A stretch of DNA of 40,066 bases from Oscillospiraceae bacterium (GTDB taxonomy: Bacteria; Bacillota; Clostridia; Oscillospirales; Ruminococcaceae), in the NCBI GenBank assembly GCA_017460835.1, contig JAFUAD010000043.1:1-40066 (forward strand). Direction: 5' to 3'. How positions within the stretch are numbered: the first letter of the stretch is position 1; every line of letters begins with the position of its first letter. Both the position numbers and the translations under genes were made by a program. Below are positions 8,940 through 40,013 of the stretch, piece by piece. The notes below the pieces were generated by a model. It was given only the letters and a program-made list of their open reading frames with translations, was not told the origin of the DNA and ran no database searches.

Positions 8940-8968
8940 ATTCTACATCAATGCGCAGCCGTTGTCAA
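8940..8968 (-). promoter_or_regulatory. Promoter of the metalloprotease gene
   Basis: Minus strand TTGACA (8968-8963), 17-base spacer, TAGAAT (8945-8940). The remaining gene-free, AT-rich sequence up to 9130 shows nothing else I can name. Confidence 0.75.
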
Positions 8969-9135
8969 TTGAATATCGGACAAATCGGAAACAAAAATTA
9001 ACATTATTTTATCAAGGCATTGTAATATTATCCTGCTTTTCGATTGGCAAGTGACACAATCGTACAGTTCCGGCCATCCGAATCAGAATAATAGGCAAAA
9101 CAAGGTTAAATTTCATAATAAGCACAGAAAAACTA

Positions 9136-9164
9136 TTGCAATTTTGGGATTTATATGTTATAAT
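9136..9164 (+). promoter_or_regulatory. Promoter of the expansin operon
   Basis: TTGCAA (9136-9141), 17-base spacer, TATAAT (9159-9164). A small hairpin (GGAAAGGC-TCT-GCCTTTTCC, 9177-9196) lies at the start of the ~60-base leader. Confidence 0.75.
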
Positions 9165-9233
9165 AACAGAATAGACGGAAAGGCTCTGCCTTTTCCTGAA
9201 AGCGATGCATCTAAAACAGAAAGGAAGGTATCT

Positions 9234-13133: not shown

Positions 13134-13162
13134 TTGACATTTGCGAAAAAACATGCTATACT
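13134..13162 (+). promoter_or_regulatory. Promoter of the DUF4434-dockerin gene
   Basis: TTGACA (13134-13139), 17 bases, TATACT (13157-13162) with extended TGc. Transcription would start about at 13169, giving a leader of only ~14 bases that is almost all ribosome-binding site. Confidence 0.8.
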
Positions 13163-13182
13163 GGCAGCGGGAGGGATGCGCG

Positions 13183-24808: not shown

Positions 24809-25591
24809 TTATCCGTTAATGATTTTCGACCAGCTCAGATTCTTCTTTCCGAGTGTGTTTTCCGTGTAATAGCTCAGAATATACTGCACATCTTCTATTG
24901 TAATGGTATTGTCCGCATCGACATCCGCGGCCTTGAACTCCGCATCGGACAGGCCGTAGCCCTTCTTTGCGAGATAATCCGTGTATGCCTGCAATGTGAT
25001 CTGTGCATCCTCCACGGCAATATCGCCGCTGTTGTCCGGGTCGCCGGTCAGGAAATCCGTCTGCTCCGGGTAGCGCGTCAGCATATAGTCCGTCAGTGAG
25101 CCGAACACCTGCTCATTTGTAAAGGTGCGTCCCCAGTGAACCTGCCCGCCGTAATTGCCCTCTGCCACGACCACGCCGGTATCCGTCACCTCAAGGATGA
25201 TGACAAAGTGCGTGTTATTGTTGATGCGGAGAATATCGCCCGGACGCACCTGATCGAATGTATCGAGCTGTCGTGCAGGCAGATTGCCGAACGCCGCATC
25301 GCTGAGCATAAAGGCAAATCCCGCACAGCCGTATCCGCCGCTGAAAATGCCGCCCTTCCACGCATAATAGTTGTCATTCGTATAGGGTGTCCCCTCGGGG
25401 TACTGCGTCTTCAGCGCGATCATCGCCGCATAAACAGCAGACGGCGACAGATCGGGCGATGCAGCCGCCTGGGCAGCCGGTGCCGCCGCATGAGCGGAAA
25501 TCCCGGAAACCGCTGCAATCTGAGCCGATACGGTCAGCGCCGCGCAGAGCAGTGCCGCAAAATGCAGACAGCGTTTTTTCCTCGGTGCCAT
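24809..25591 (-). CDS. Secreted cysteine peptidase-like protein with dockerin
   Basis: A 260-residue exported protein: signal peptide (about 1-35), then a papain/NlpC-P60-like domain (about 48-165) with a likely catalytic Cys89 (GGYGCAGFAF), His128 (NNNTHFVIIL) and Glu/Asn in AEGNYGG. The last ~75 residues are a dockerin with GDPDNSGDIAVED and ADVDADNTITIED loops. It could trim peptidoglycan or proteins while bound to the cellulosome. Start ATG 25591 with GGAGGG nearby. Confidence 0.82.
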   Translation of the reverse strand: MAPRKKRCLHFAALLCAALTVSAQIAAVSGISAHAAAPAAQAAASPDLSPSAVYAAMIALKTQYPEGTPYTNDNYYAWKGGIFSGGYGCAGFAFMLSDAAFGNLPARQLDTFDQVRPGDILRINNNTHFVIILEVTDTGVVVAEGNYGGQVHWGRTFTNEQVFGSLTDYMLTRYPEQTDFLTGDPDNSGDIAVEDAQITLQAYTDYLAKKGYGLSDAEFKAADVDADNTITIEDVQYILSYYTENTLGKKNLSWSKIING

Positions 25592-25645
25592 AAAAATCCC
25601 TCCGATTGTTGATTTGCACATTTTTGAAACTAAGCACCCGATAAT

Positions 25646-25674
25646 ATTATACACAATTTCCATCTGCTTGTCAA
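25646..25674 (-). promoter_or_regulatory. Promoter of the dockerin peptidase gene
   Basis: Minus strand TTGACA (25674-25669), 17-base spacer, TATAAT (25651-25646). Confidence 0.85.
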
Positions 25675-25706
25675 GAGGAAATCCGCACCTTTCTGCTGAA
25701 ATCCGC

Positions 25707-25735
25707 TTGACACATGCAGCGGAGTGTGCTATAAT
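25707..25735 (+). promoter_or_regulatory. Promoter of the nitrogenase-like / Hyp operon
   Basis: Perfect TTGACA (25707-25712), 17 bases, perfect TATAAT (25730-25735), extended TGc. It is the only strong promoter I see ahead of the 13-kb gene series that begins at 25760. Confidence 0.88.
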
Positions 25736-25759
25736 AGAATCAGTAACGGAGGTGTCCGA

Positions 25760-26008
25760 ATGGAAACCAGAACCGCGATCATCGCGATTATCCTCAAAAA
25801 CAGCGACGCAGCCGAGGCGGTCAATGCCCTGCTGCACACCTATGCGGACTACATCATCGGCCGGATGGGGATTCCCCACCGCGGCAGAGGGCTGAATCTC
25901 ATCAGCATTGCGATTGATGCGCCGCAGGATATCATCAATACGCTCGCCGGAAAGATCGGAAGACTCTCCGGCGTCGAAGCAAAAACCGTTTACGCACCGA
26001 ACGACTGA
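25760..26008 (+). CDS. TM1266-type putative [FeFe]-hydrogenase-system regulator
   Basis: An 82-residue ferredoxin-fold protein (beta-alpha-beta: RTAIIAIILKN, then AVNALLHTYADYIIGRMGIPHRGRGLNLISIAIDA, then LAGKIGRLSGVEAKTVYA) of the small ACT/NikR-C-like family named after TM1266. In Thermotoga and many Clostridia it is encoded with HydE and HydG and is called an iron-only hydrogenase system regulator; its biochemical role is not known. GGAGGT at 25748-25753 fixes ATG 25760. It is the first gene of the operon, so it links the locus to H-cluster-type maturation. Confidence 0.85.
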   Translation: METRTAIIAIILKNSDAAEAVNALLHTYADYIIGRMGIPHRGRGLNLISIAIDAPQDIINTLAGKIGRLSGVEAKTVYAPND

Positions 26009-26080
26009 ACCGGTGCTTCGCGTCCACTCCGGAAGCATGTTCTGACGGAGCTGCACTGCAAAGCCCGGTACAATTTCATC

Positions 26081-26130
26081 ACGCTGTCCCCTGACCCCGA
26101 AAGCCCGTCGGCTTGAGGGGAAAGCACGGC
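26081..26130 (+). ncRNA. Structured leader RNA upstream of the HydE-like gene
   Basis: Within the 230-base gap after the TM1266-like gene, an ordered fold is visible: GCTGT (26083-26087) with ACGGC (26126-26130), enclosing CCCC-GA-AAGCC (26095-26105), a CGTC loop, and GGCTT-GA-GGGG (26110-26120) with facing GA/GA. It lies directly before a terminator hairpin and has no open frame of note. This suggests a riboswitch or protein-binding leader. I cannot match it to a known family. Confidence 0.5.
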
Positions 26131-26155
26131 AGTCCCCGCAGAATATGCAGATCAT

Positions 26156-26200
26156 GAGGGGGGCAGTCTGTGCCGATGGGCAGACTGTCCTCCTTTTTTT
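26156..26200 (+). terminator. Intrinsic terminator (attenuator) just before the HydE-like gene
   Basis: CAGTCTG (26164-26170) pairs with CAGACTG (26181-26187), and the stem extends outward through GGGGGG/TCCTCC to about 14 bp. A run of seven T follows at 26194-26200. Only 38 bases separate it from the next start codon, too little for another promoter, so it must act inside the operon. Confidence 0.8.
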
Positions 26201-26238
26201 CATTGCCCGGCATCTCAGCCGGGAAGAAAGGCGCTGTC

Positions 26239-27294
26239 ATGATACAGGAAGAAAACAAGCAGCTCATTGACAAGCTGCACGCGCAGCACAGCCTGACAAA
26301 GCCCGACTGGATCACGCTGATAAGTAATTTCACGGACGACGACCGCGCCTATGCTGCGGATATCGCACGGGAGATTGCGCAGTCGAAATTCGGGAACCGG
26401 GTTTTTATCCGCGGAATCGTGGAGTTTTCCAATTACTGCAAAAACGACTGCCTCTACTGCGGCATCCGGCGCAGCAACGGCAGGGCGCAGCGCTATCGCC
26501 TGACGGACGATGAGATTCTGAGCTGCTGCGCGGAGGGCTATGAGATCGGCTACCGCACCTTTGTGCTGCAAAGCGGCGAGGATATGACCTACACCGCAGA
26601 CCGGATCGCTGCGCTCGTCCGCCGCATCAAGGCTGATTTTCCGGACTGCGCCGTGACGCTTTCGCTCGGCGAGCGGGAATATGACGAGCTGAAGCAGATG
26701 AAGGAGGCGGGCGCCGACCGGTATCTGCTGCGGCACGAAACGGCGAATCAGCAGCATTATGAGCTGCTGCATCCCGCTGCGATGTCCTTTTCGCACAGAA
26801 TGCGATGTCTGCATGACCTGAAGGCGCTCGGCTATCAGACCGGCGCCGGCATGATGATCGGCGCGCCGTACCAGACCGCAGAGCATCTTGCGGAGGATAT
26901 GCTGTTTCTGCGGGAATTTGAGCCGCATATGATCGGCATGGGGCCGTTCCTGCCGCATCAGGATACGCCCTTTGCAAAGGAACCGAAGGGCTCCTATGAG
27001 CTGACGCTGTTTCTGCTGAGTCTGTGCAGAATCATGCTGCCGAATGTGCTGCTGCCGGCGACCACGGCGCTCGGAACGATTCATCCGCTCGGGCGCGAGC
27101 AGGGCATACTCGCGGGCGCAAACGTCATCATGCCGAATCTCTCTCCGACGGCTGTACGCAAGAAATACATGCTCTATGACAACAAAATCTGCACCGAGGA
27201 CCGCTCGGCGGACTGCCGCTTCTGCCTGCATCAGCGCATGAAGGCGATCGGCTATGAAATCACAGTCGCAAGGGGTGACTATTCCGATGATTAA
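26239..27294 (+). CDS. hydE: HydE-like radical SAM enzyme
   Basis: A 351-residue radical SAM protein of the HydE/PylB/BioB group. The SAM cluster motif is C67-x3-C71-x2-C74 (NYCKNDCLYCG), preceded by IRGIVEFSNYC. GAGMMIGAPYQT and MGPFLPHQDTPF are typical of HydE. The C-terminal Cx7CxxC (ICTEDRSADCRFC) matches the accessory [2Fe-2S] site known in Thermotoga HydE. HydE processes the Fe(CO)2CN-cysteine precursor in [FeFe]-hydrogenase H-cluster assembly. Here it sits between a TM1266-like gene and nitrogenase-like genes, without HydF or HydG. ATG 26239 chosen by GAAAGG and family length. It overlaps the next gene by 8 bases. It may serve ordinary hydrogenases or a new cofactor. Confidence 0.85.
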   Translation: MIQEENKQLIDKLHAQHSLTKPDWITLISNFTDDDRAYAADIAREIAQSKFGNRVFIRGIVEFSNYCKNDCLYCGIRRSNGRAQRYRLTDDEILSCCAEGYEIGYRTFVLQSGEDMTYTADRIAALVRRIKADFPDCAVTLSLGEREYDELKQMKEAGADRYLLRHETANQQHYELLHPAAMSFSHRMRCLHDLKALGYQTGAGMMIGAPYQTAEHLAEDMLFLREFEPHMIGMGPFLPHQDTPFAKEPKGSYELTLFLLSLCRIMLPNVLLPATTALGTIHPLGREQGILAGANVIMPNLSPTAVRKKYMLYDNKICTEDRSADCRFCLHQRMKAIGYEITVARGDYSDD

Positions 27295-28048
27295 AATTGC
27301 GATCTACGGCAAGGGCGGCATCGGGAAATCGACGATTTCCTGCAATGTCTCCGCGGCGCTTGCGGCAAAGGGTCTGCGCGTCATGCAGATCGGCTGCGAC
27401 CCGAAGGCGGATTCCACTGCGCTGCTGCACGGCGGCTCCCGCATCCCGACCGTTCTGGAACTGGAGCGGCAAAAGGGCATGCGCATCACGCTCGATGAAA
27501 TCGTACACCGCGGCGAAGGCGGCGTGCTCTGTGTCGAGGCGGGCGGACCGCTTCCGGGCGTGGGCTGCGCGGGGCGCGGCATCATCAATGCACTCGAAAC
27601 GCTGAAACGCCTGAACGCATACGAAATCTATCAGCCGGATCTCGTGATCTACGATGTGCTGGGGGATGTGGTCTGCGGCGGCTTTGCGATGCCGATGCGC
27701 GGCGGATATGCAGATAAGGTGTTTGTGGTCACATCCGGCGAAAAAATGGCGAAATACGCAGCGGGCAATATCTGCATGGCGATACAGAATTTCAAGGGCA
27801 GAGGGTACGCCGCGCTCGGCGGGCTGATACTCAACTGCCGCGGCGCAGAGCAAGAGCGCGAGACCGTTCAGGCGCTCGCGGATGATTTCGATACAAGCAT
27901 TATCGGCACGCTCGACCGCAGCGCGGATATCACGGCGGCCGAAAAGCAGGATACAACCGTGCGCACGCTTCTGCCGGACTGCACCGCATCAAGACAGCTT
28001 GACGAAATTGCGGAAGCGCTGCTCTCCGCCTGCGGGGTGACCGTATGA
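27287..28048 (+). CDS. NifH-like ATP-dependent iron protein, copy 1
   Basis: A 253-residue homologue of nitrogenase reductase. Residues 7-16 ([10 protein letters not shown]) form the P-loop, [11 protein letters not shown] the switch region, and C94 (GVGCAGRG) and C130 ([11 protein letters not shown]) the two ligands per subunit of the bridging [4Fe-4S] cluster. It should therefore be a dimeric, ATP-driven electron donor. It begins inside the end of the HydE-like gene, and its own stop overlaps the next gene, so all are translationally coupled. The likely partners are the two products encoded immediately downstream. It is shorter than true NifH (~270-290 residues). Confidence 0.9.
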   Translation: MIKIAIYGKGGIGKSTISCNVSAALAAKGLRVMQIGCDPKADSTALLHGGSRIPTVLELERQKGMRITLDEIVHRGEGGVLCVEAGGPLPGVGCAGRGIINALETLKRLNAYEIYQPDLVIYDVLGDVVCGGFAMPMRGGYADKVFVVTSGEKMAKYAAGNICMAIQNFKGRGYAALGGLILNCRGAEQERETVQALADDFDTSIIGTLDRSADITAAEKQDTTVRTLLPDCTASRQLDEIAEALLSACGVTV

Positions 28049-29355
28049 GTGCCGCCGCCGAGAAGCCCCGCAGCATCCGGATCGCCGACGCGGATCCGAA
28101 TGCGATCTTTCAATCGGGGCTCGAATACAATACGCCTGTGCGCGGCATGTGGAATATCGTCCACACCGGCATGCTGATTCCCGGCGCACACCAGATCTTT
28201 GCCTGCGCACAGGGCTGTCTGCGCGGTGTCATCCTGACCGCAGCGGAAATGAACGCGCTCGACCGTCTGAGCTGGATTTCGGTCTCCGAGCAGGATATGT
28301 ACGACGGAAGCCTCGAATACGATATCATCGACGGCTGCGCGGAGATTTTGCAGAAGCTCCCGCAGAAGCCGCCGGTCGTGCTGCTGTACCTGAGCTGCAT
28401 CCATCTGTTTGCCGGTGTCGATTTTGAGATGATTCTCTCCGCACTGCGGTCGCAGTTTCCGGGCATCGCTTTTGTCGATTGCTACATGACCCCGACGATG
28501 CGGCAGACCGTCTCACCGGCAGTGAAAATGGCGGCACAGCTCTATGCAGCACTGGAGCCGCGCGCAAGGAATCCGCGGGCTGTCGGCATCATCGGCAATG
28601 ACCGCCCGACGGATGAAGGCTCTGAGCTGCTCCGGCTCATCCGCGGAAACGGGTTTATCCTGCGCGACCTCACGCTATGTAAGGACTATGACGAATATCA
28701 GCAGATGGGCGAATGCGCGCTCAATCTCACCTACACGCCCGTCGCAGGGCTCGCCGGTGAGGAGCTGGAGCAGCGCTTAGGAATCCCGCATCTGCATCTT
28801 CCGAACAGCTTTGACTATTCGGAAATTGCCGCAAACTACTGGCTGCTCTGCGATGCACTCGGCATTGAATGCCCGGACTTTTCCGCTGAGATTGCAGCCG
28901 CAGATGCCGCGCTTGATCGGCTGTATGCGGAGATCGGCGAGATTGCTGTCGCAATCGACTTCACCGCCGTCACGCAGCCCTTTTCGCTCGCAAAGCTGCT
29001 GACCGAACACGGATTCCATGTGAAATATATCATCGCGGATGCCGCCGCCGAGGATGCCGCAGCATTCTCATGGCTTGCGGAGCACCGCCCCGATCTTGAG
29101 ATTTTCTCCGCCGCCAATGTCAACATGCTGCATTTCAAGAGTGAGGAACATGAGCCGGTGCTGGCAATCGGTCAGAAGGCAGCGTACTATTTCGCGACCG
29201 ATCATTTTGTCAATATCGTCATGAACGGCGGATATTACGGCTATGCGGGAATCGCGGCGCTCTGTACTCTGATGAGCGAAGCATACCGTACCCCGAAGGA
29301 CAGCCGCAGGGTTCTGCGGCACAAGGGGCTCGGATGCCCGTCCTGTTTGCTGTAA
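28045..29355 (+). CDS. Nitrogenase component 1-like protein (NifD-type), copy 1
   Basis: A 436-residue divergent member of the NifD/NifE/BchN superfamily. An N-terminal pair C54/C58 (IFACAQGC) follows a PGAH turn; the SEQDMYDGSLEYDI helix and C118 (LYLSCIHLFAGVD) sit where component-1 cluster Cys residues normally occur. The C-terminal domain ends in GYYGYAGIAALC and the CxxC tail GLGCPSC (C431, C434). I see no equivalent of the FeMo-cofactor Cys/His ligands. It probably pairs with the next gene's product and receives electrons from the NifH-like protein. Overlaps the nifH-like gene by 4 bases. Substrate unknown. Confidence 0.75.
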   Translation: MSAAAEKPRSIRIADADPNAIFQSGLEYNTPVRGMWNIVHTGMLIPGAHQIFACAQGCLRGVILTAAEMNALDRLSWISVSEQDMYDGSLEYDIIDGCAEILQKLPQKPPVVLLYLSCIHLFAGVDFEMILSALRSQFPGIAFVDCYMTPTMRQTVSPAVKMAAQLYAALEPRARNPRAVGIIGNDRPTDEGSELLRLIRGNGFILRDLTLCKDYDEYQQMGECALNLTYTPVAGLAGEELEQRLGIPHLHLPNSFDYSEIAANYWLLCDALGIECPDFSAEIAAADAALDRLYAEIGEIAVAIDFTAVTQPFSLAKLLTEHGFHVKYIIADAAAEDAAAFSWLAEHRPDLEIFSAANVNMLHFKSEEHEPVLAIGQKAAYYFATDHFVNIVMNGGYYGYAGIAALCTLMSEAYRTPKDSRRVLRHKGLGCPSCLL

Positions 29356-29368
29356 GGAGGGCTGTGCT

Positions 29369-30508
29369 GTGAAAAATGTATCCAGAATCATCCCCTGCTA
29401 TGCGGCGGATACCTCCGGTGTCTGCTCGGCGCTCTATGAGCTCGGCGGGATGACCGTCGTACACGACGCCTCCGGCTGCAACTCGACCTATGCGACGCAT
29501 GATGAGCCGCGCTGGTACGATATGCAGTCCATGATCTTTATTTCCGCGCTGACCGAGCTCGATGCGATCCTCGGCAATGACGAAAAGCTGATTGCCGATG
29601 TTGTATCCGCTGCGCATGACCGGCGCCCGCGCTTTATCGCAGTCTGCGGCTCGCCGATGCCGATGATGACCGGCGTGGATTTCGATGCCGCGGCTGCGGA
29701 GATCGAACGGCGCTCCGGCATCCGCACCCTTGCCATGCACACAAACGGCACGCATTCCTACATTGCCGGCGCATCCGAGGCACTTTGCAGGATTGCCGAG
29801 GAGTATACCGACAATCTCCCCAAAACCAAAGAGCCCTCCGTCAATATTCTCGGCGCGACCCCGCTCGATTTCGGAATCGGCGGAACCGTTGACAGTCTGC
29901 GCCTCTGGCTGCATGAGCAGGGATTTTCGGTGATCTCCTGCTTTGCAATGGGCGACACGCTCGAAACGCTCCGCAAGGCTGCCTCAGCGCATGTGAATCT
30001 GGTCATTTCGCAGACCGGAACGGCGGCGGCACAGTATTTGTATGATGTGTTCGGGATTCCCTATGTCTGCGGCATCCCGACCGGGCAGCAATTCCCCGCT
30101 GCGGTCGCGGATGCACTGAAGCATGCCGCTGCCGACGGACAGTGCAGGTTTCCCTGTGCCGCCGGGCATTCAGATGAGAAAGGTGAGATCGTTGTCATCG
30201 GCGAAAGCATCGCGGCGGGTTCCATAGCGGCAGAGCTGTCCGTGCAGACCGGCAAAACGGCACGGGTCATCTGCCCGCTGCCCTTTGACCCGCGATGCCG
30301 AAACGGCGCGGCGGAAAGCCCTGCCTCCGAGGAGGAGATCGAACGCGATCTTACAGAGCATCCGCCGCAGATCATCGCGGCAGACCCGCTGTACCGGTTT
30401 ATCTGCCCGCAGCAGGCAAGGCTGATCGAAATGCCGCATTTCGCATTCTCCGGGCGCTGCTTTGATACGCGCATCCCCGATCTCCTGCACTTTGATTATT
30501 CGCGATAA
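29369..30508 (+). CDS. Nitrogenase component 1-like protein (NifK-type), copy 1
   Basis: A 379-residue component-1-like subunit. C19 ([22 protein letters not shown]37) and C93 (AVCGSPMP) give the three-Cys pattern of cluster ligands at the subunit interface. [11 protein letters not shown] and an ILGNDEKLI helix follow the NifK scheme. The C-terminal domain is shorter than in NifK. The start is GTG 29369 with AAGGAGG at 29354-29360. It is related to the product of the gene at 32578. Likely a heteromeric partner of the NifD-like protein. Confidence 0.75.
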
Positions 30509-30522
30509 AAGGTGAGACTTTT

Positions 30523-31287
30523 ATGATTAAAATTGCAATTTACGGCAAGGGCGGCATCGGCAAATCGACCTGCACTGCAAATCTCTCCGCGGCATTTGCC
30601 ACGCTCGGCAAGCGGGTCATTCAGATCGGCTGCGACCCGAAGGCGGACTCCACGATCAATCTGCTCGGCGGTACGCCGGTCACTCCGGTCATGGACTATA
30701 TGCGGACGCACAACGATGACCCGGAATCGGCGGAGGAGATCTCCCGCAGCGGCTTCGGCGGCGTGCTCTGCATCGAGACCGGCGGCCCGACACCGGGTCT
30801 CGGCTGCGCAGGCCGCGGCATCATCACGACCTTCCGCCTGCTGGAGCAGCTTGATCTGTTTGAGCAGTATCAGCCGGACGTCGTGCTGTACGATGTGCTC
30901 GGCGATGTGGTCTGCGGCGGATTTGCCGCACCGATCCGCGAGGGCTATGCAGAGCAGGTGCTGATCGTGACCTCCGGCGAAAAAATGGCGCTCTATGCCG
31001 CAAACAATATCTGCAATGCCGTGCGGAATTTTGCTGACAGAAGCTATGCGAAGGTGCGCGGCATCATTCTCAACCGCCGGAACGTGGAGGACGAGGAAGC
31101 AAAGGTGCGCGCCTTTGCGGATTCCGCAGGGCTGGAGATCACGGCAGATATCCCGCGCTCGGATGATATCATCCGCTGTGAGGATACGGGAAAGACCGTC
31201 ATCGAGGGCGCGCCGGACTGCGAAGCGGCACAGCGCTTTCTCGCTCTGGCAAAAAAGCTGATTGCGGAGGACGCGAATCATGCATAA
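30523..31287 (+). CDS. NifH-like ATP-dependent iron protein, copy 2
   Basis: A 254-residue paralogue of the iron protein at 27287, starting with the identical [16 protein letters not shown]. The P-loop and cluster ligands C95 (GLGCAGRG) and C131 ([11 protein letters not shown]) are intact. The region between (about 50-80) differs markedly from copy 1 ([16 protein letters not shown]), as would be expected if each docks onto a different component-1 pair. It heads the second H-D-K set and overlaps the next gene by 8 bases. Confidence 0.9.
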
Positions 31288-32581
31288 CGCTTACTCGATC
31301 ACCGCCGCAGAGCTTGCCGCACGCGGGCTCGGGGATATCCCGGACGAGCTCAGCTCGGCAAAGCATATGATTTACAGCTCCCCTGCGACACTCGACTACA
31401 ACTCCCCCGGCGCAAAGGGCTTCGGCGTCAAGCGCGCAGGGCTCGTCATACCGGAATCGGTCATGCTGCTGGTCGCGCCGGGCTGCTGCGGCCGCAATAC
31501 TGCGCTGCTCAATGAGCTCGGATACAGCGAGCGTTTCTTCTATCTGCTGCTCGATGACACGGATATCGTCACCGGCAGATACCTGAATAAAATTCCGCAG
31601 GCATGTGCGGAAATCGCAGAAGAATCTGAAAAAAAACCGTCTGCGATCGTCATATGCGTCACCTGCGTCGATGCGCTCCTCGGCACGGACATGGAGCGCA
31701 TCTGCCGGAGCTGCGAGGATGCCTCCGGCATCCCGTCGATTCCGGCATATATGTATGCGCTGACACGCGAAAAGCGTCTGCCGCCGATGGCACTGGTGCG
31801 GAAGTCCGTGTATTCCCTGCTCAAACCCCAGAAGCGTATTTCCAATGAATGCGCATTGCTCGGATATTTTTCCGCACTGGACGATGCCTGCGAGCTGTAT
31901 GAACTGCTGCATTCCGCCGGAATCCGCAAAATTCATGAGATCGGGCGGTGCAGGAGCTTTGCCGAATACGAACAGATCTCCCGCGCAAATTTCAGCATCG
32001 TGCTGAATGCAGAGGCGCGCTATGCGGCACAGGATATGCAGAAAACACTCGGCATCCCGTTCGTTGAGATGACCCGCCTGTTCCGCATTGAAAAAATCCG
32101 GACGCAGTACCGCCTGCTCGGTCAGGCGATCGGCGCGGAGCTGGACGATTCGGCTTATTATGAAAAAGCAGAAAAACGCATTTCCGATTTTCGCCAAACA
32201 TACGGCTCCCTGCGCTTTGCTGTCGGGGAGTGTCTCAATGCGGACAGCTTTGAGCTCGCGCTTTCGCTGATCGAATACGGGCATCAGGTCGCGGAAATTT
32301 ACGGAACAATCGGCGAGCGGAACTTCGTGTTCGTCAAGCGAATCGCCGAGCGCTCGCCCGATACCCGCATTTTCTCGAATCTCGAACCGAGCATGCTGAA
32401 CTACCGGCGTGGCTGCGAGATCGACGCGGTGATCGGAAACGATGCGATGTACTATCACCCCGATCTGCCGGGCATCGGATTTCAGGAGGAGACGCAGCCG
32501 TTCGGATATCAGGGCGTGCTGATGCTGCTAGACGGGCTCGATTCCGCATTATCGGAAAGCCGCAGGAAGGAGAACGCATGA
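31280..32581 (+). CDS. Nitrogenase component 1-like protein (NifD-type), copy 2
   Basis: A 433-residue divergent component-1 protein. The N-terminal half has VAPGCCGRN (C69/C70), an [15 protein letters not shown] helix, and [13 protein letters not shown] (C126/C129), the last matching the Cys-containing strand before the domain switch. The C-terminal part ends in [20 protein letters not shown]. Overall similarity to copy 1 is clear in order of elements but low in sequence. ATG 31280 chosen by GGAGG at 31266-31270. Overlaps the next gene by 4 bases (ATGA). Confidence 0.72.
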
Positions 32582-33621
32582 AAAAGCTCTTGAAACATAT
32601 GTCTCCCCTTGCGCCGGACGATTCCGGCGCCTGCGGCGTGCTCTATGAAATGGGCGGCATCACGGTCATCTGCGATGCCGGCGGCTGTGCGGGCAATGTC
32701 TGCGGATTTGACGAACCGCGCTGGCATACGAAAAAATCCGCGCTGTTCAGTGCCGGGCTGCGGGATATGGACGCGATTCTCGGGCGGGATGACCTGCTCG
32801 TACACAAGCTCTCGCTGATCTGCGGGCAGATCGACGCGCCGTTTACTGCGATCGTCGGGACGCCGGTTCCGGCTGTCATCGCAACCGATTTTCATGCACT
32901 GGAGCGCATGTCTGAGCGCAAAACCGGGCTCCCCTGCCTAACCCTTGAAACCGACGGAACAAGGCGCTATGACTACGGCGAGGCGCTGGCATACGATACG
33001 CTGTTCCGCAGATTTGCAGCGGAACAGTACCCGGTAAAGCCCGGCTCACTCGGCGTGATCGGCGTGACCCCGCTCAACACCGGATTCATAACCGCAGAGC
33101 CGCTGCTCCGCAGCCTGAGCGGAAAGGGATACAGCGAGATCACCTGCTTCGGCATGGACAGCGGGCTCGAAGCCGTCATCCGGGCATCGGAATGTGAATC
33201 GCTGCTGGTCATTGCGCCGTCCGGCTTAAAAGCGGCGCAATATCTGCAAAAAAACTTCGGAACGCCGTTTTCGGTCGGCTATCCCTGTCTCCCGGCGGAA
33301 ACCGTCCGGGCGGCATCCGCCCTGCGCGGAAAACGGGTGCTCATCATCCACCAGCAGTTTGCGGCAAATGCCCTGCGCGAGCATCTCACAGACTGCGAAG
33401 CAGACTGCGCTGCATGGTTCAAGCAGGAGAAGCAATATGCGCTGCCGGGTGATTTCCGGATTGCCGAGGAGGAGACGCTCGTGCAGGCGGCGGAGCGCTA
33501 TGATGTCATCATCGCCGATGCTGTCATGCGGCGGATCGTCCCGCGCTTTGCCGGCGAATGGATTGATTTTCCGCATTATGCCGTATCCGGCTGCGCCCGC
33601 GAATCGGGCAGCCTGAGCTAA
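32578..33621 (+). CDS. Nitrogenase component 1-like protein (NifK-type), copy 2
   Basis: A 347-residue paralogue of the protein at 29369, sharing the opening pattern DxSGxCxxLYExGGxTVxxDAxGC (C19, C37) and DEPRW. It has an extra C42 and C82. The third Cys of copy 1 (C93, CGSP) is replaced by Gly (VGTPVP), so its cluster or metal site must differ. It is the shortest of the four component-1-like proteins. Translationally coupled to the preceding gene and 10 bases before hypF. Confidence 0.75.
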   Translation: MKKLLKHMSPLAPDDSGACGVLYEMGGITVICDAGGCAGNVCGFDEPRWHTKKSALFSAGLRDMDAILGRDDLLVHKLSLICGQIDAPFTAIVGTPVPAVIATDFHALERMSERKTGLPCLTLETDGTRRYDYGEALAYDTLFRRFAAEQYPVKPGSLGVIGVTPLNTGFITAEPLLRSLSGKGYSEITCFGMDSGLEAVIRASECESLLVIAPSGLKAAQYLQKNFGTPFSVGYPCLPAETVRAASALRGKRVLIIHQQFAANALREHLTDCEADCAAWFKQEKQYALPGDFRIAEEETLVQAAERYDVIIADAVMRRIVPRFAGEWIDFPHYAVSGCARESGSLS

Positions 33622-33631
33622 AGAGGGCATT

Positions 33632-35947
33632 ATGAGAGTAACATATCACGTTTACGGCATTGTACAGGGCGTCGGCTTCCGCCCCTTTACAGCGGTGACC
33701 GCAGAGCGGCTCGGCATTACCGGCACCGTCGCAAACAAGGGCTCCTATGTGGAGATCATCGCGGAGGGTACGCCGCAGCAGCTCGCTGCATTTGCCGATA
33801 CAATCCGCGATCATCCGCCGGAGCGGGCAACGGTGCTGAGCCTCGATTCCGCCGAATATACGGAGGATTCCGGAAAGGATTTCAGCCGGTTTTCGATCAT
33901 TGAAAGCGAAAAGGAATACGGCAGAATCTTCGTATCGCCCGATATCGCGACCTGTGAAGCCTGCAAAAAGGAGCTGTTTGACCCGCAGAACCGGCGCTAT
34001 CTGCACCCGTTCATCAACTGCACGCAGTGCGGCCCGCGCCTGACAATTCTCGATACGATGCCGTATGACCGCGAGCGCACGGCCATGCGGCGCTTCCCGA
34101 TGTGCAAAGCATGCAGCGCGGAGTATCACGATCCCAGATCGCGGCGCTATGACGCACAGCCGGTCTGCTGCCGCGACTGCGGCCCTGAGGTTTTCGTGCT
34201 CGGAACTGAGCTGCGCGGCGGGGATGCGATCACGGCAGTCCGGCGTGCGATCATGGAGGGAAAAATCGCCGCAGTCAAGGGCATCGGCGGGTTTCATCTC
34301 TGCTGCGATGCGAAAAATGAGACGGCAGTCAGCCGCCTGCGCGCGCTGAAGCGCCGCCCGATGAAGCCCTTTGCGGTCATGATGAAGGATCTGCAAACCG
34401 CAGAACGCGAATGCATCATAAAGGACGGACAGGAAGCCCTCCTGACCGGCTGGCAGAAGCCGATTCTGCTGCTCGAAAAGCGTGATTCTATGTCCGTTTC
34501 GCCGCAGATCGCGCCGGATAACCGGACTGTCGGCGTCATGCTGCCCTATGCACCGCTGCACATGCTGCTGTTTGATTATCCGGATGGCATCGAAATGACC
34601 GACTGCATGGTGATGACAAGCGGAAATGCCCGCGGCGCACCGATCTGCCGCAATGATGAAGACGCAAAAAAGGAGATCGCGGGCTTCTGCGACCTGATTT
34701 TAACGCACAACCGCGAGATTCTCATCCGCGCCGACGATTCCGTCTGCGACTGGCTGAACGGCGGGCCGTATATGATCCGGCGCTCGCGCGGGTTTGCGCC
34801 GCTGCCGGTCATGCTGAAGCATGCCGGAGAGCGGCAGGTGCTTGCAGTCGGCGGCGAGCTGAAAAACAGCTTTTGCATCGCGCGGCACGGCATGCTCTAT
34901 GCCTCGCCCTATATCGGCGACACGGAAGACCTCAGAACCGTCAACGCACTGAAAGAATCCGCTGCAAGACTGTGCGGGCTGCTCGAAGCGGAGCCGGAGG
35001 CAGTCATCTGCGACACGCACCCGCTCTACAACACGGTGACCGTCGCGGAGGAGCTCGCGAAGGAGCGCTGCATTCCGCTGATCCGCGTGCAGCACCATTA
35101 CGCGCACATTCTCTCGTGCATGGCGGAAAACGGCTGCACGGAGCCGGTCATCGGCATCAGCTTCGACGGCACCGGCTACGGCGACGACGGCACGGTCTGG
35201 GGCGGCGAGCTGCTGATCTGTGACCCGCACGGCTATCAGCGCGCGGGCAGCGTCCGGCCGTTTATGCAGACCGGCGGCGATCTCTCCGCAAAGGAGGGCT
35301 GGCGCATTGCGGCTGCGCTGCTGGAGAGCCCGGAGCAGTGTGCCGCACTCGGCATCTGCACTGAGCAGGAAGCGCGTGTCATCGGCAATATGAGCAGGCT
35401 GCATGTCAACAGCGTGCGCTCGACAAGCTGCGGCAGAATTTTCGATGCGGTCTCTGCGATCACCGGCATCCGGCGATGCAGCACCTTTGAGGGCGAGGCA
35501 TCGACCGCGCTGATGTACGCTGCGGAAACGTACTGCAAGCAGAACGGATACAGCGCACCGGCACTCCCCTGCTCTGTGACCGAATCCGGCGGCTTCCTGA
35601 CGCTGAATACGACGGAAACGGTGAAACGCATTGCAGAGATCATGATGCAGCACCCGGAGCGGCGCGATACGCTGAGCTTTTCGTTCCACGCAGCGCTCTG
35701 CGATATGATCGTTTCTGCATGCATCATCCTGCGGGAGCAGTCCGGTATCGGCATCTGTGCCTTAAGCGGCGGCGTATTCCAGAACCGCCTGCTGACTGCC
35801 ATGACAGAGCAGAAGCTCCGCGCTGCCGGCTTCCGCGTACTGCTGCACAGCCTGATCCCGCCGAACGACGGCGGCATCTGCATCGGTCAGGCATTTTTCG
35901 GTGTTATGAATCCGGGGGCGGAACAGTCCCCGACTGTGAAAAAATAG
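33632..35947 (+). CDS. hypF: Carbamoyltransferase HypF
   Basis: A 771-residue enzyme that starts cyanide-ligand synthesis from carbamoyl phosphate and hands the carbamoyl group to HypE. Domains in order: acylphosphatase (1-90, VQGVGFRPF with catalytic Arg), two zinc fingers (about 108-185, CEACKKELF, INCTQCGP, CKACSAEYHD, CCRDCGP), a YrdC-like domain (about 200-380), and a carbamoyltransferase/Kae1-like domain (about 390-771) with HHYAHILSC, ISFDGTGYGDDG and ALSGGVFQN. All parts look intact and the length is normal. Confidence 0.96.
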   Translation: MRVTYHVYGIVQGVGFRPFTAVTAERLGITGTVANKGSYVEIIAEGTPQQLAAFADTIRDHPPERATVLSLDSAEYTEDSGKDFSRFSIIESEKEYGRIFVSPDIATCEACKKELFDPQNRRYLHPFINCTQCGPRLTILDTMPYDRERTAMRRFPMCKACSAEYHDPRSRRYDAQPVCCRDCGPEVFVLGTELRGGDAITAVRRAIMEGKIAAVKGIGGFHLCCDAKNETAVSRLRALKRRPMKPFAVMMKDLQTAERECIIKDGQEALLTGWQKPILLLEKRDSMSVSPQIAPDNRTVGVMLPYAPLHMLLFDYPDGIEMTDCMVMTSGNARGAPICRNDEDAKKEIAGFCDLILTHNREILIRADDSVCDWLNGGPYMIRRSRGFAPLPVMLKHAGERQVLAVGGELKNSFCIARHGMLYASPYIGDTEDLRTVNALKESAARLCGLLEAEPEAVICDTHPLYNTVTVAEELAKERCIPLIRVQHHYAHILSCMAENGCTEPVIGISFDGTGYGDDGTVWGGELLICDPHGYQRAGSVRPFMQTGGDLSAKEGWRIAAALLESPEQCAALGICTEQEARVIGNMSRLHVNSVRSTSCGRIFDAVSAITGIRRCSTFEGEASTALMYAAETYCKQNGYSAPALPCSVTESGGFLTLNTTETVKRIAEIMMQHPERRDTLSFSFHAALCDMIVSACIILREQSGIGICALSGGVFQNRLLTAMTEQKLRAAGFRVLLHSLIPPNDGGICIGQAFFGVMNPGAEQSPTVKK

Positions 35948-35959
35948 GAGGAATTGATT

Positions 35960-36169
35960 ATGTGTGTCGGATTATCTGCAAGAGTTGTCAATGTGACAAA
36001 CGGCGCCGCTCTGATTGATGCGAACGGTGCCCAGAGAACGGTCAGCGCGGGCATTCTGGAGGATCTGGAGCCCGGCGATTACATCATGGTTCACGCCGGT
36101 GTCGCGATCGCAAAAATCAGCGAGGACGATGAACAGGAGGCCGCTGAGGTCATGGAGGAGCTGCTGTGA
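35960..36169 (+). CDS. hypC: Hydrogenase maturation chaperone HypC
   Basis: A 69-residue HypC/HybG protein. The start must be ATG 35960, since the family requires Met-Cys at the N-terminus (Cys2 binds the iron centre); AGGAGG precedes it. In [NiFe] systems HypC with HypD carries the Fe(CN)2CO unit to the large subunit. No hydrogenase large subunit lies here, so its client may be elsewhere or be a nitrogenase-like protein. Four-base overlap with hypD. Confidence 0.95.
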   Translation: MCVGLSARVVNVTNGAALIDANGAQRTVSAGILEDLEPGDYIMVHAGVAIAKISEDDEQEAAEVMEELL

Positions 36170-37212
36170 ACAAGAGCATGGAAGCCGCTCGGGACATCAT
36201 CACATCCTATGACGGGAAGCCCCTGCGGATCATGGAGGTCTGCGGCACGCACACGCACGAGATTTTCCGTCTCGGGCTGCGCAAGCTGCTCCCGCCGCAG
36301 ATCGAGCTGATCTCAGGCCCCGGATGTCCGGTCTGCGTGACGGCGGTCGGCTTTATCGACGAGGCATGCTGGCTCGCGCTCGAAAAGCAGTGTATCATCT
36401 GCACCTTCGGCGATCTGATCCGCGTACCGGGGACGGAAATGAGCCTTGCCGGGGCGCGCGCAAAGGGCGCCGAAGTGAAACCGGTCTACTCCCCGCTCGA
36501 TGCGGTCGAGCTCGCAAAACAGAACCCGGAGCGGCAGGTCGTGTTCCTTGCCGTGGGATTCGAGACCACGACCCCCTCTGCATGTCTTGCGGCAAAACAG
36601 GCAAAGGAAGCGGGCCTTGGGAATTTCTCTCTGCTGACCGCAAACAAGACCATGCCGAACGCCTATCAGGCATTGGTCGGCGCGGCGGATGCGTTTCTCT
36701 ATCCGGGGCATGTCAATGCGATCACGGGCAATGCGGTATGCAGGGAGCTCTGCGAAAAGCAGGGTGTTTCCGGCGTCGTTGCGGGATTCACCGCCAGCGA
36801 GCTGATGACAGCGCTTGCCGTCACGATCAGGCTGCTCGGCACCGGTGAGCCGTTCTTCCGGAACTGCTATCCGCGTGTTGTAAAGGACGAGGGCAATCCC
36901 GCCGCTATCCGCATGATGCAGGAAGTCATGGAGCCCTGCGACAGCGAATGGCGCGGCCTCGGGATGATTCCGCAGTCGGGCATGAAGCTGCGGGCGGAAT
37001 ATGCCGGCTATGACGCGAGAATCAAATTCAATATGCCGGTCATCACCGGAAGACCGAACCCGGCATGCCGCTGCGGAGAGGTCTTGCAGGGCAAATGCAA
37101 GCCCTCGGACTGCAAGGTGTTCGGAAAGGTCTGCACGCCGCTGCATCCGGTCGGCGCATGCATGGTTTCCGACGAGGGCGCCTGCTCTGCGTATTATCAG
37201 TATGCAGATTGA
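36166..37212 (+). CDS. hypD: Hydrogenase maturation protein HypD
   Basis: A 348-residue scaffold on which the Fe(CN)2CO group is built. C26 (EVCGTHTHEIFR), C54/C57 (GPGCPVCV), GFETTTPS, and the C-terminal cluster-binding region with many Cys (CRCGEVLQGKC, CKVFGKVC, GACMVSDEGAC) are all present. The start is GTG 36166 overlapping the hypC stop; ATG 36178 is an alternative. Confidence 0.96.
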   Translation: MNKSMEAARDIITSYDGKPLRIMEVCGTHTHEIFRLGLRKLLPPQIELISGPGCPVCVTAVGFIDEACWLALEKQCIICTFGDLIRVPGTEMSLAGARAKGAEVKPVYSPLDAVELAKQNPERQVVFLAVGFETTTPSACLAAKQAKEAGLGNFSLLTANKTMPNAYQALVGAADAFLYPGHVNAITGNAVCRELCEKQGVSGVVAGFTASELMTALAVTIRLLGTGEPFFRNCYPRVVKDEGNPAAIRMMQEVMEPCDSEWRGLGMIPQSGMKLRAEYAGYDARIKFNMPVITGRPNPACRCGEVLQGKCKPSDCKVFGKVCTPLHPVGACMVSDEGACSAYYQYAD

Positions 37213-37647
37213 ACCACTGCACGCGGCGGATTCACGCTGGCTCGCTCTCGCAGAATACGCGGAATCGGTCTCATGGCGTGCGGGCGCATTCCTTGCGCGG
37301 GGCTGATGCGGGAGAACCGCTTTGCAGACTGGGAGCGCGTTTTTGCGGCATATGAAAACGGGAATCCCGTCGGCTTCTGCACGCTGACCGAAAAGGACGA
37401 AATGCCCGACGATTGCGCATTCTCGCCGTTTATCGGATTTGTATTCGTTGACGAGGCACACCGCGGCAGACGCATCTCAGAGCAGATGATAAAAGCGGCA
37501 GCGGCATATGCAGGCAAATGCGGATTCACGCAGGTTTATCTGACCAGCGATGAACGCGGACTGTATGAAAAATACGGATTTGAAAAGATCGCAGAGGCGG
37601 AAACCATCCGCGGAGAGCGCACACAGCTCTTTGCAAAGCCGATCTGA
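37202..37647 (+). pseudogene. GNAT acetyltransferase gene with a frameshift
   Basis: The N-terminal part (37202-37306, MQIEPLHAADSRWLALAEYAESVSWRAGAFLARG) stops at TGA 37304. The sequence continues in another frame as LMRENRFADWERVFAAYENGNPVGFCTL and on to the acetyl-CoA loop (DEAHRGRRISEQMI) and YLTSDERGLYEKYGF. Joined, these give a normal ~145-residue GNAT. The break lies at the GGGG run 37299-37302 (two extra or one missing base). It is either a real mutation or a sequencing error. The gene begins inside the end of hypD. Confidence 0.75.
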
Positions 37648-37658
37648 AAGGAAGCACA

Positions 37659-37832
37659 ATGGAACCGCACGAGTATATCATATCGGAAATCAGCGGCGAT
37701 TACGCCTATCTGAAGCAGCTCGACAATGACAGCGCAGAGCCGTATCAGGTCGCGCTCGCGCTGCTGCCGCCCGGCGCCGATATCGGCACGAAGCTGACCG
37801 GCTTTATGGGCTGCTTTGAAATCACAGAATAA
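37659..37832 (+). CDS. Small DUF3006-like protein
   Basis: A 57-residue protein with ATG 37659 after AAAGGAAG. ISGDYAYLKQLDN, then ALALLPPGADIGTKL, then a closing strand, resembles the small beta-barrel DUF3006 proteins (DRFEGDYAVLE ... LLPPGAKEGDVL). Function unknown. Its place between hypD and hypE is unusual and may be incidental. Confidence 0.6.
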   Translation: MEPHEYIISEISGDYAYLKQLDNDSAEPYQVALALLPPGADIGTKLTGFMGCFEITE

Positions 37833-37843
37833 GGAGCATCTTT

Positions 37844-38851
37844 ATGAACGAGAACACAGTCACGCTTGCGCACGGCGCGGGCGGCACACAGACCAATGAA
37901 CTGATCGACCGCGTATTCAAGGCGCATTTCGCAAACCCGCTCTTTACCGGCGACGATGCCGCTGTTTTGCCGCAGCCGGCCGGTAAAATCGCGACCTCAA
38001 CCGACGGTTTCATTGTATCGCCGTGGAAATTTCCGGGCGGCAACATCGGCAAGCTGTCGATCTGCGGGACGGTCAACGACCTCTCCTGCATGGGTGCAAG
38101 GCCGCTCTATCTGACCTGCGCCTTTGTCATCGAGGAGGGCTTCCCGCTCGATGCGCTGGAGGAAATCGCGGCGGCAATGGAGAAAACCGCGAAGGAGGCG
38201 GGCGTCCGCATTGTCGCGGGCGATACGAAGGTTGCCGGAAAGGGTCAGTGTGACGGCGTGTTCATCAACACGACCGGCATCGGCGAGATCCTGCCGCAGG
38301 CAAATACCTCCGGCACACGCGCAAAACCCGGCGATGCCGTCATCGTCACCGGCGACGTCGGCAGGCACGGCTGCACCATCCTCATTGCGCGCAATGATTT
38401 CGGCATCGAATCCGATGTGGACAGCGACTGCGCGCCGCTCTGGGGCACGGTCGAAAGCCTGTACCGCGTCACCGATGAAATCCATGTCATCCGCGATGCC
38501 ACGCGCGGCGGCGTCGGCACGGTGCTGTATGAGATCGCGGGGCAGAGTCAGGTCGGCATCACGCTGAATGCTGCGAGTGTGCCGGTTGACCCGCGTGTGA
38601 GGGGCGTATGCGGGATGCTCGGACTGGACCCGCTGTATCTTGCCTGCGAGGGGCGGCTTGTGATCTTCGCGCCGCAGGAGCATGCAGAAGCGCTTGTCGC
38701 TGCGCTCAGAGCCGGCAAATATTCTGCAAATGCCGCGATTATCGGCAAAGTGACAGAAGAAAATGCGGGCAAGGTAATTGTTGAAACCGAGATCGGGACA
38801 CAGACCGTTCTGCCGCAGCCAAAGGGTGAGCTGCTCCCCCGCATCTGCTGA
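37844..38851 (+). CDS. hypE: Carbamoyl dehydratase HypE
   Basis: A 335-residue PurM-like ATPase that converts the carbamoyl group on its C-terminal Cys to a thiocyanate, the cyanide source for iron. The chain ends exactly in PRIC, so the essential terminal Cys is present. GAGGTQTNELI, GDDAAVLP, STDGFIVSP, GTVNDLSCMGA and ATRGGVGTVLYE are typical. Last gene of the operon, before a terminator. Confidence 0.97.
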   Translation: MNENTVTLAHGAGGTQTNELIDRVFKAHFANPLFTGDDAAVLPQPAGKIATSTDGFIVSPWKFPGGNIGKLSICGTVNDLSCMGARPLYLTCAFVIEEGFPLDALEEIAAAMEKTAKEAGVRIVAGDTKVAGKGQCDGVFINTTGIGEILPQANTSGTRAKPGDAVIVTGDVGRHGCTILIARNDFGIESDVDSDCAPLWGTVESLYRVTDEIHVIRDATRGGVGTVLYEIAGQSQVGITLNAASVPVDPRVRGVCGMLGLDPLYLACEGRLVIFAPQEHAEALVAALRAGKYSANAAIIGKVTEENAGKVIVETEIGTQTVLPQPKGELLPRIC

Positions 38852-38858
38852 TTTAAAC

Positions 38859-38884
38859 GAAAAAACCCCGGCTCAGCCGGGGTT
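38859..38884. terminator. Terminator between hypE and the convergent dockerin gene
   Basis: Stem AACCCCGGC-TCA-GCCGGGGTT (38864-38884), with an A-run on its left. On the minus strand this gives a T-run, so it is strongest for the dockerin gene but also ends the hyp operon. Confidence 0.8.
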
Positions 38885-38899
38885 ATCGTGTTGTAAATT

Positions 38900-39964
38900 T
38901 CATTCCGGAAGATAGGCAAGATACCGCATGATGCTGCGGAAATCCTCCATATTCAGGAGCTCATCGCGGTTGAAATCGGCGTTGTCAATGCCGTCATCCG
39001 TAATGCGCAGGGTCTCGTCCTCATTGATCAGACGCAGCAGCTTTACTGCATCGGTCACATCCACCGCACCGTCGATATCCAGATCGCCGCGGATCAAGGC
39101 GGCAGTATATCCGCTTGCATGCTCTCCGGCTGAACCCACCGACCAAACATAGTTGTTCAGATCGACAAAGACATTGAGATCGCGATAGATTTCTTCCCAC
39201 AGCATGAGCTGTTCTTCCTTTGTAAATTTCACATTCGGGGAAGCGGAATTTGTGCTGCTCCAGTCCGTTACACCCTCCGGTGCAACAAAGAATCCGTATG
39301 TGTCTCCGTCCCTGTGATAAAACTGATAGGACGGATGATGCGCTTCCAGATATGCACGGACTGCATCTTCGTCAGTTGAACGGTAATACAGGCATCCGTC
39401 TGTAAATACATGCCAATCACTGATACTGAAATCCCATGCTTGATATTTGGTAATCAGTTCTTCTTCCAGCAGCTTCGCTATGATCCCGTCAGAAAACGAT
39501 GTTGTAAAATCCTGATTGTAAATCTGTCCGTAAGGCTGCTTTCCCGCGCTGTACTGGAAATATTTTTTCCCGCCGGCAATATAGTTTGTCGTGCCGGTCT
39601 GCGCATCGTACCTTTTCTCTGTTTCTTCACCCTCAAAATAGGTGTCAAGAATGTCCCAGAGCTTTGCAGCCGATTCTTCCGCACTGATATCAGTCCGCAT
39701 AATGATCTCTGCGTAGGGCGGCTGGAGAATATCAAGCTCAAGTGCCTGATCGGAATAATAGACCTCGCCCCTGAACACATCCTTCAGAACGCCCAGCCCC
39801 TCATAGTGATGCAGTCCGTACTGTCCCAGATAATCCTGAAACGCATCCTCAAATGAATATCCTGCATAGTACGGCTCATAGTCCGCGCCCGCCGAGACGC
39901 CGCTCAGACTGATGCTCATAACAGCAGCAGACAAAATGGCAATGAAACGATTTCCTCTTTTCAT
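38900..39964 (-). CDS. Secreted dockerin protein of unknown function
   Basis: A 354-residue exported protein. Signal peptide about 1-27 (cleavage near VSAG/AD). The central ~240 residues (rich in Tyr, Asp and Phe; e.g. FEDAFQDYLGQYGLHHYEG, YIAGGKKYFQYSAGKQPYGQIY, YRSTDEDAVRAYLEAHHPSYQFYHRD) match no family I know. The C-terminal ~65 residues are a dockerin (GDLDIDGAVDVTDAVKLL ... ADFNRDELLNMEDFRSI). ATG 39964 is placed by GGAGG at 39973-39977. Monocistronic. Confidence 0.75.
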   Translation of the reverse strand: MKRGNRFIAILSAAVMSISLSGVSAGADYEPYYAGYSFEDAFQDYLGQYGLHHYEGLGVLKDVFRGEVYYSDQALELDILQPPYAEIIMRTDISAEESAAKLWDILDTYFEGEETEKRYDAQTGTTNYIAGGKKYFQYSAGKQPYGQIYNQDFTTSFSDGIIAKLLEEELITKYQAWDFSISDWHVFTDGCLYYRSTDEDAVRAYLEAHHPSYQFYHRDGDTYGFFVAPEGVTDWSSTNSASPNVKFTKEEQLMLWEEIYRDLNVFVDLNNYVWSVGSAGEHASGYTAALIRGDLDIDGAVDVTDAVKLLRLINEDETLRITDDGIDNADFNRDELLNMEDFRSIMRYLAYLPE

Positions 39965-40013
39965 CCTCAAGTCCTCCTCTCACATTCCGATGGGCACATC
40001 TGCCCTCATTAAC

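Follow-up and report, generated by a model that had tools for sequence, protein, structure and literature searches.

Where do the carbon monoxide (CO) and cyanide (CN) ligands of [FeFe] hydrogenase come from in a bacterium that lacks HydG, the described source of both? This question is raised by a locus at positions 25,707 to 38,851 of contig JAFUAD010000043.1 from an Oscillospiraceae bacterium (assembly GCA_017460835.1); "the window" hereafter means the whole stretch of this DNA that was analyzed (40,066 nt). As an initial annotation of the sequence had stated, and as family matches agree, the locus encodes, on the + strand and in this order, a TM1266-like regulator, the maturase HydE, two NifHDK-like sets (set 1, H1-D1-K1; set 2, H2-D2-K2), and HypFCDE. 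Based on comparisons of gene content across genomes, we propose that this locus replaces hydG in genomes retaining hydF and that it provides, independently of HydG, the Fe-CO-CN building block from which the H-cluster is made, a reading to which we give a probability of about 0.83.

Mutual exclusion of set 1 and HydG

The source assembly (G000; 2.98 Mb, 88% complete) holds HydE, HydF, and [FeFe]-hydrogenase-domain proteins: HydF was detected above cut-off outside the window, together with three Fe_hyd_lg_C proteins, one of which (477 aa) contains the motifs TSSCCP, GPCTAKKME, and ACEGGCIGG. The earlier statement that no hydrogenase, HydF, or nifB is present thus holds for the window and not for the genome, where a NifB-like gene was also found (275 bits, below the NifB cut-off of 343.65). 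The absence of HydG does extend genome-wide, with no protein above cut-off and ThiH as the top match. Separately, NifB-like, NifH, NifE-like, and NifX-like genes adjoin cysteine/methionine metabolism genes on contig C19 of this assembly (L168, positions 4594-10494), and this cluster resembles the methylthio-alkane reductase (Mar) type; a different, Mar-like group of the nitrogenase superfamily has been linked to methyl-sulfur gene clusters (excerpts of PMC10418091).

Within the genus, set 1 and HydG never occurred together. Among 30 genomes (G000-G029), searched with identical models along with G053 of another family, K1 of set 1 (E ≤ 1e-100) was found in 21 and HydG above cut-off in six (G006, G010, G011, G014, G015, and G016), with no overlap (Fisher p = 1.4e-4, not corrected for kinship). 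Both were missing from G013, G018, and G022 (58-84% complete), the last of which has HypD and only a K2-type match and was left out of the K1 count. HypD was detected in 20/21 set-1 genomes vs 0/6 HydG genomes, HydE and HydF were each above cut-off in 18/21 vs 6/6, and Fe_hyd_lg_C proteins were present in 20/21 vs 6/6; the H-cluster motifs TSCSPGW, MPCTAKKFE, and ACPGGCVNGGG are intact in HydA of G001, G008, and G053. Because the gene set replaces HydG in genomes that retain HydF as well as [FeFe]-hydrogenase genes (the latter wherever they were looked for), the most likely product of the system is the H-cluster.

The exclusion was also seen at class level, in 391 evenly drawn genomes searched with the K1 profile (E 1e-40), HydG (1e-80), and HydF (1e-50). 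K1-profile matches occurred in 16 of the 29 genomes with HydF but no HydG, vs 4 of the 232 genomes with both (p = 1.9e-14). These four (G174, G248, G278, and G368) are distant, unlinked relatives, with no TM1266, HydE, HydF, or hyp matches within the 12-17 kb inspected, and their post hoc exclusion gives 0/232 (p = 4.9e-18); another match of the distant kind lies in G241, where HydF and HydG are both missing. In 15 of the 16 positives, set 1 adjoins TM1266, HydE, HydF, or hyp genes. Both states exist inside single genera (g1, g93, g173, and g226) and single families (f1, f24, f35, f64, and f66, plus f26 if the sixteenth positive, G454, is counted), which argues for a replacement that happened repeatedly. 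Mere co-regulation of unrelated modules, offered previously as the simpler reading, leaves the HydG exclusion unexplained.

In public data, genomes of 84,980 species yielded 470 K1 relatives, of which the best 80 were kept (19 already in the genus set, 43 searched for HydG, and 18 left out). These best 80 include Ruminococcus albus 8, KH2T6, and AR67, the clostridia Clostridium ljungdahlii, C. carboxidivorans, C. drakei, C. muellerianum, and C. luticellarii, and one Spirochaetaceae and one Victivallales genome. HydG scored above cut-off in one of the 43 further K1 genomes (C. drakei) and in none of the other 42.

A different account of the same pattern is that HydG was simply lost, that another radical SAM enzyme or environmental CO and CN serves in its place, and that the locus makes something else. 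Parts of a study of acetogens (PMC9431212) bear on this account: hydG was undetected in 5/8 Clostridium acetogens, in vitro activation by HydE and HydF alone was about 1%, and an atypical HydG-like protein was hypothesized along with cellular CO and CN as alternatives, with Nif-like genes unmentioned in those parts. In our class sample, 15 of the 20 HydF-positive, HydG-negative genomes that are at least 90% complete were scored set-1 positive, and the five that were not (G260, G379, G382, G433, and G467) perhaps use another route or have assembly gaps. On the other side, sub-threshold HydG matches proved to be ThiH above its own cut-off in 3/3 cases checked, and 9 of the 21 genus set-1 genomes as well as C. 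ljungdahlii had not even a sub-threshold match, so that ThiH was rejected as a hidden HydG. Moreover, the locus lies inside the hyd operon, and each of four genera contains genomes of both states. We thus regard this account as improbable.

Still less credible is that the hyp genes serve an ordinary [NiFe] hydrogenase and are merely parked beside the HydE and Nif-like genes. The initial annotation had named such a hydrogenase as something to look for, and its large subunit had no match in any of the 31 genomes of the genus set (the source genome and G053 included) or in 51 of the 58 further genomes with set 1 (43 public and 15 from the class sample). Matches in the remaining seven were short in three cases, and the other four, all Clostridium species with the locus, are what speaks for such a service; as the main role, it was rejected on these counts (0/31 and 7/58). 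HypA and HypB are not among the window genes (the genomes were not searched for either), and HypCDEF without HypAB is listed for five Clostridium species, four of which are also among those without detected hydG (parts of PMC9431212).

Organization and linkage of the locus

In the source contig, the genes from H1 to HypE overlap by 4-8 bases or nearly abut (-8 to +60 bases between neighbors), whereas TM1266 and hydE are 230 bases apart with a predicted hairpin in between (Table 1), which makes a single transcript uncertain. Genes 3' of the hairpin, a possible attenuator, may have their own start or be subject to attenuation; an Rfam scan of 25500-39100 gave nothing up to E 0.1. The promoter, called near-consensus before, agrees with the consensus at every position, and it is one of two predicted divergent promoters within 25646-25735, each matching 12/12 and lying 33 bases apart. 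A longer TM1266 reading frame would start at 25724. All genes named earlier are there, with the addition that a GNAT gene and a short reading frame, the latter with no Pfam or NCBIfam match, intervene between hypD and hypE. The Oxidored_nitro family (PF00148) matched D1, K1, D2, and K2 with E values of 1.2e-12 to 1.5e-30.

Table 1. Positions of genes and predicted signals of the locus within the window
Feature	Position	Strand	Basis and remarks
Sigma-70-type promoter (predicted), TTGACA-17-TATAAT	25707..25735	+	12/12 match to consensus
Small TM1266-like regulator (82 aa from ATG)	25760..26008	+	TIGR03959, 99.7 bits (cut-off 60.8); PF21699
Terminator-like hairpin (predicted), TM1266-hydE interval	26156..26195	+	16 pairs and T tail
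HydE, radical SAM maturase, 351 aa	26239..27294	+	TIGR03956, 557.5 bits (cut-off 254.6)
H1, set-1 NifH-like ATPase	27287..28048	+	PF00142; nifH score 304.6 bits (below cut-off 394.35)
D1, set-1 NifD/NifE/BchN-like subunit	28045..29355	+	PF00148; nitrogenase-type fold predicted
K1, set-1 NifK/BchB-like subunit	29369..30508	+	PF00148; closest folds, BchB of DPOR (dark-operative protochlorophyllide reductase)
H2, set-2 NifH-like ATPase	30523..31287	+	PF00142; nifH score 310.4 bits (below cut-off 394.35)
D2, set-2 NifD/NifE-like subunit	31280..32581	+	PF00148
K2, set-2 NifK-like subunit	32578..33621	+	PF00148
HypF, carbamoyltransferase	33632..35947	+	TIGR00143, 726.4 bits (cut-off 466.1)
HypC	35960..36169	+	PF01455, 72.9 bits (cut-off 28.5)
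HypD	36166..37212	+	TIGR00075, above cut-off
GNAT acetyltransferase reading frame, inconstant passenger	37273..37647	+	PF13508; present in 5 loci
57-aa reading frame ahead of hypE	37659..37832	+	Present in 19 loci (part of all)
HypE	37844..38851	+	TIGR02124, 418.8 bits (cut-off 251.6)

Conservation of the gene set in relatives, proposed initially as a check, was found in 12 of 20 stretches from relatives, which hold both sets whole plus hyp genes. One stretch (G025) begins within set 1 and continues into set 2 and hyp, that of G053 has set 1 but neither set 2 nor hyp genes, and the remaining six had been retrieved for hydE, hydF, or hydEFG. Among long public K1 loci (at least 17 kb; 52 of the best 80), K2 and HypC were each present in 50/52 and HypD in 47/52; as these loci were picked by K1, the linkage is demonstrated given K1. 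On this genomic evidence, the association of the genes is not due to chance.

The order of the genes varied among lineages. The loci of R. albus and of many further Ruminococcus genomes read TM1266-HydF-HydE-H1D1K1-H2D2K2-HypF-HypC-HypD-HypE; Clostridium loci read H2D2K2-HypFCDE-H1D1K1, with HydE and HydF not in the stretch; and loci of genus g93 read H2D2K2-HypFCDE-TM1266-D1K1-HydF, followed by HydE in two loci, with no H1 seen. In 20 hand-picked stretches from HydG genomes (one of them, L190, taken at HydF), HydG was next to HydE in 15 stretches and next to HydF in 16, so that set 1 occupies the usual place of hydG. In a tree of 51 hand-chosen HydE rows, 27 of the 31 set-linked HydE cluster together in a supported group with no HydG partners inside, the label requires at least three changes, and four unlinked HydE of set-1 genomes fall elsewhere; HydE alone is therefore insufficient to define the system.

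A minimal type of locus (L034, L121, L149, and similar) carries set 1 together with HydE but has neither set 2 nor hyp genes nearby. In L149, a FecCD-type permease and a TM1266-domain ABC ATPase precede HydE, H1D1K1, a periplasmic-binding lipoprotein, and HydF; L121 has the same layout of reading frames after a TM1266-like match and likewise holds HydF in the same stretch as set 1. A domain scan, made on L149 only, assigned the ATPase (2187-3296, genome G477) to the Fec/Btu kind with a C-terminal TM1266 domain (PF21699), and L121 and L034 resemble L149 in this region. These loci, among them that of G053 (97% complete), a genome in which set 1 is present and neither HypD nor HydG was matched, qualify the expectation that the Nif-like sets do not occur independently of hyp genes: set 2 was tied to hyp in nearly all loci seen, and set 1 does occur without hyp in G053. 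They also lend substance to a competing model, in which set 1 alone replaces HydG, and the supply module formed by set 2 and HypCDEF is exchangeable with, for example, a metal-complex importer that would bring iron or a ready-made Fe complex. The regular presence of HypC and HypD beside K1 in the long public loci opposes this model, and the genome-wide HypD search covers one minimal-type genome (G053); we consider the model a serious contender, at somewhat below even odds. Under our proposal of a HydG-independent ligand source, the minimal type is perhaps a variant in which HypCDEF has been exchanged for an ABC importer with a TM1266-bearing ATPase that salvages a preformed iron complex from the environment.

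The importers invite yet another explanation, namely that the Nif-like sets act as reductases on siderophores or other imported complexes, releasing their iron and contributing nothing more than this iron to maturation. Besides set 1 itself in the minimal type, distant relatives adjoin iron-type ABC transporters: a K1 search of a plasmid collection gave two matches, both distant, in NifHDK-like sets on plasmids of Treponema saccharophilum (L021, 12979-19275) and Sporomusa termitida (L022, 5744-13068). However, HydG genomes of the same genera manage without the sets, the R. albus-type operon couples the sets to HypCDEF, and a source of CO and CN is not replaceable by iron supply alone, all of which make iron release an unlikely sole function.

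Conserved residues and a possible ligand route

Conservation was counted after excluding five distant loci (L155, L158, L159, L160, and L164). The Hyp proteins of the locus keep the C-terminal Cys335 of HypE (64/64 rows), the N-terminal Cys of HypC (85/85), and C26, C54, C57, and the C-terminal Cys set of HypD (0.99-1.00 in 81 rows), which we take to be the cyanide-transfer and iron-binding residues of [NiFe] maturation. The NifH-like ATPases retain C94/C130 (H1, all 94 rows) and C95/C131 (89 rows), presumably fitting a bridging [4Fe-4S] cluster. In set 1, C54, C58, and C118 of D1 are invariant (102/102 rows), and K1 has no Cys conserved at 0.95 across 109 rows; C19 and D33 of K1 are invariant in a 30-row subset, with the register of D33 against the BchB Asp not verified. 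In set 2, conserved cysteines lie on both D2 (C126 and C129 at 1.00, C69 and C70 at 0.99; 91 rows) and K2 (C37 and C42; 91/91 rows), their register to the P-cluster not being verified.

The predicted fold of D1 (mean pLDDT 87.7) is nearest to nitrogenase, NifEN, and related subunits, although the 50 matches listed share 11-17% identity; among solved structures, D1 aligned with nitrogenase alpha chains and NifE-like chains, which did not settle the cluster ligands. That of K1 (mean pLDDT 81.6) is nearest to BchB. In DPOR, one subunit contributes three Cys and its partner an Asp to the binding of a [4Fe-4S] cluster. The three Cys of D1, the lack of a Cys at 0.95 on K1, and the BchB-like fold of K1 may point to a DPOR-like design, which would place set 1 closer to DPOR than to a FeMo-co enzyme.

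The closest known systems share some features with the locus and differ in others. With HydE-HydF-HydG maturation it shares HydE, HydF, TM1266, the [FeFe]-hydrogenase genes, and a similar operon setting, but it has two nitrogenase-like complexes with HypCDEF (or an ABC importer) and not HydG. It shares HypF, HypC, HypD, and HypE with their key cysteines with [NiFe] maturation, whereas a [NiFe] large subunit is usually missing and the locus is tied to HydE/HydF and the Nif-like sets. The likeness to DPOR (BchL/BchN/BchB) lies in the H, D, and K architecture, the K1 fold, and possibly the one-[4Fe-4S] design; the proteins of the locus nevertheless fall far below the DPOR family cut-offs, and the operon has no tetrapyrrole genes. 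Nitrogenase, NifEN, and MarHDK likewise pair a NifH-like reductase with two Oxidored_nitro subunits, and NifE is among the best sequence matches, but H1 and H2 are below the nifH cut-off, nifB and nifEN are not in the operon, and K1 lacks the conserved P-cluster cysteines. Nitrogen fixation was rejected as a role on the nifH scores and the absence of nifB and nifEN from the operon.

In standard maturation, HydG splits tyrosine and yields an Fe(CN)(CO)2-cysteine synthon, which HydE reduces and dimerises, and HydF with H-protein finishes the H-cluster (parts of PMC12752695). The product of HypCDEF is Fe(CN)2CO (parts of PMC9431212). With HypCDEF in place of HydG, each iron would thus have one cyanide in surplus and be one CO short. 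Nitrogenases reduce cyanide and CO2, so ATP-driven nitrogenase-type reductases are plausible agents for resolving this mismatch. In the scheme we envisage, the Hyp proteins would work as they do in [NiFe] maturation, with HypF and HypE converting carbamoyl phosphate to cyanide and HypC/HypD loading CN and CO onto iron; set 2, the companion of the hyp genes, would make or reduce the unit with HypCDEF; and set 1, at the usual place of hydG, would deliver a form acceptable to HydE. Using ATP-driven low-potential electrons, the two sets would supply CO and/or convert the Hyp-type unit, in which each Fe bears two CN and a single CO, to one that HydE accepts, with a single CN and two CO on each Fe, after which HydE, HydF, and H-protein would complete the H-cluster as usual with tyrosine not being the ligand source. 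This would be a third biological Fe-CO-CN route, with cyanide from HypF/HypE, CO or ligand exchange from the nitrogenase-like ATPases, and no tyrosine, and we hold it about as probable as its negation; the odds that the H-cluster route is tyrosine-independent are also near even. The division of labor between set 1, set 2, and Hyp is our inference. The idea, put forward in the initial annotation, of NifDK-like pairs that assemble, reduce, or carry an iron cofactor with possible CN/CO ligands fits these comparative findings, while the H-cluster as its destination had not been foreseen.

Several observations weigh against the replacement of HydG by this locus. C. drakei carries set 1 and HydG together, and G454, counted among the 16 positives on a K2-type match, has set 2 and hyp genes with a partial K1-like match elsewhere. 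With 5/20 near-complete genomes lacking set 1, a minority of HydG absences is unaccounted for. HydE and HydF were each missing above cut-off in 3/21 set-1 genomes of the genus, perhaps because of assembly gaps; the ~590-aa HydA of relatives was not found in the source assembly; and many of the assemblies are incomplete metagenome-assembled genomes. The lack of HypD in G053 indicates that HypCDEF is not a constant part of the system. Finally, surveys report that bacteria of the rumen and gut have nitrogenase genes with low expression, low transcription of nifH included, though these may not be the same genes (parts of PMC6776011 and PMC12578642).

Relevance to hydrogen metabolism in gut and rumen bacteria

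Four dockerin-bearing proteins lie around the locus in the window (4457-7243 and 7424-8872 on the - strand, 13141-14427 on the + strand, and 38900-39970 on the - strand), one of them with a pectate lyase domain, which suggests a cellulosome-forming bacterium. R. albus, which has the locus, is described as forming H2 by the [FeFe] hydrogenase HydABC (parts of PMC6288185), and the acetogens C. ljungdahlii and C. carboxidivorans, treated in PMC9431212, carry it too. Our search of open-licence full-text literature found no report tying nitrogenase-like genes to [FeFe] maturation, which does not prove that no such report is in print.

If our reading is true, the H-cluster would be built another way in R. 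albus, in other Ruminococcus of the rumen, and in acetogens like C. ljungdahlii, and the published but unexplained absences of hydG (PMC9431212) would be accounted for. Some NifH-like genes that surveys may class as putative nitrogenase would gain a function, and the reading can be tested directly in cultivable bacteria. More broadly, many gut and rumen bacteria would form the iron-carbonyl-cyanide core without the tyrosine-splitting HydG, and nitrogenase-like, [NiFe], and [FeFe] cofactor chemistry would meet in a single pathway.

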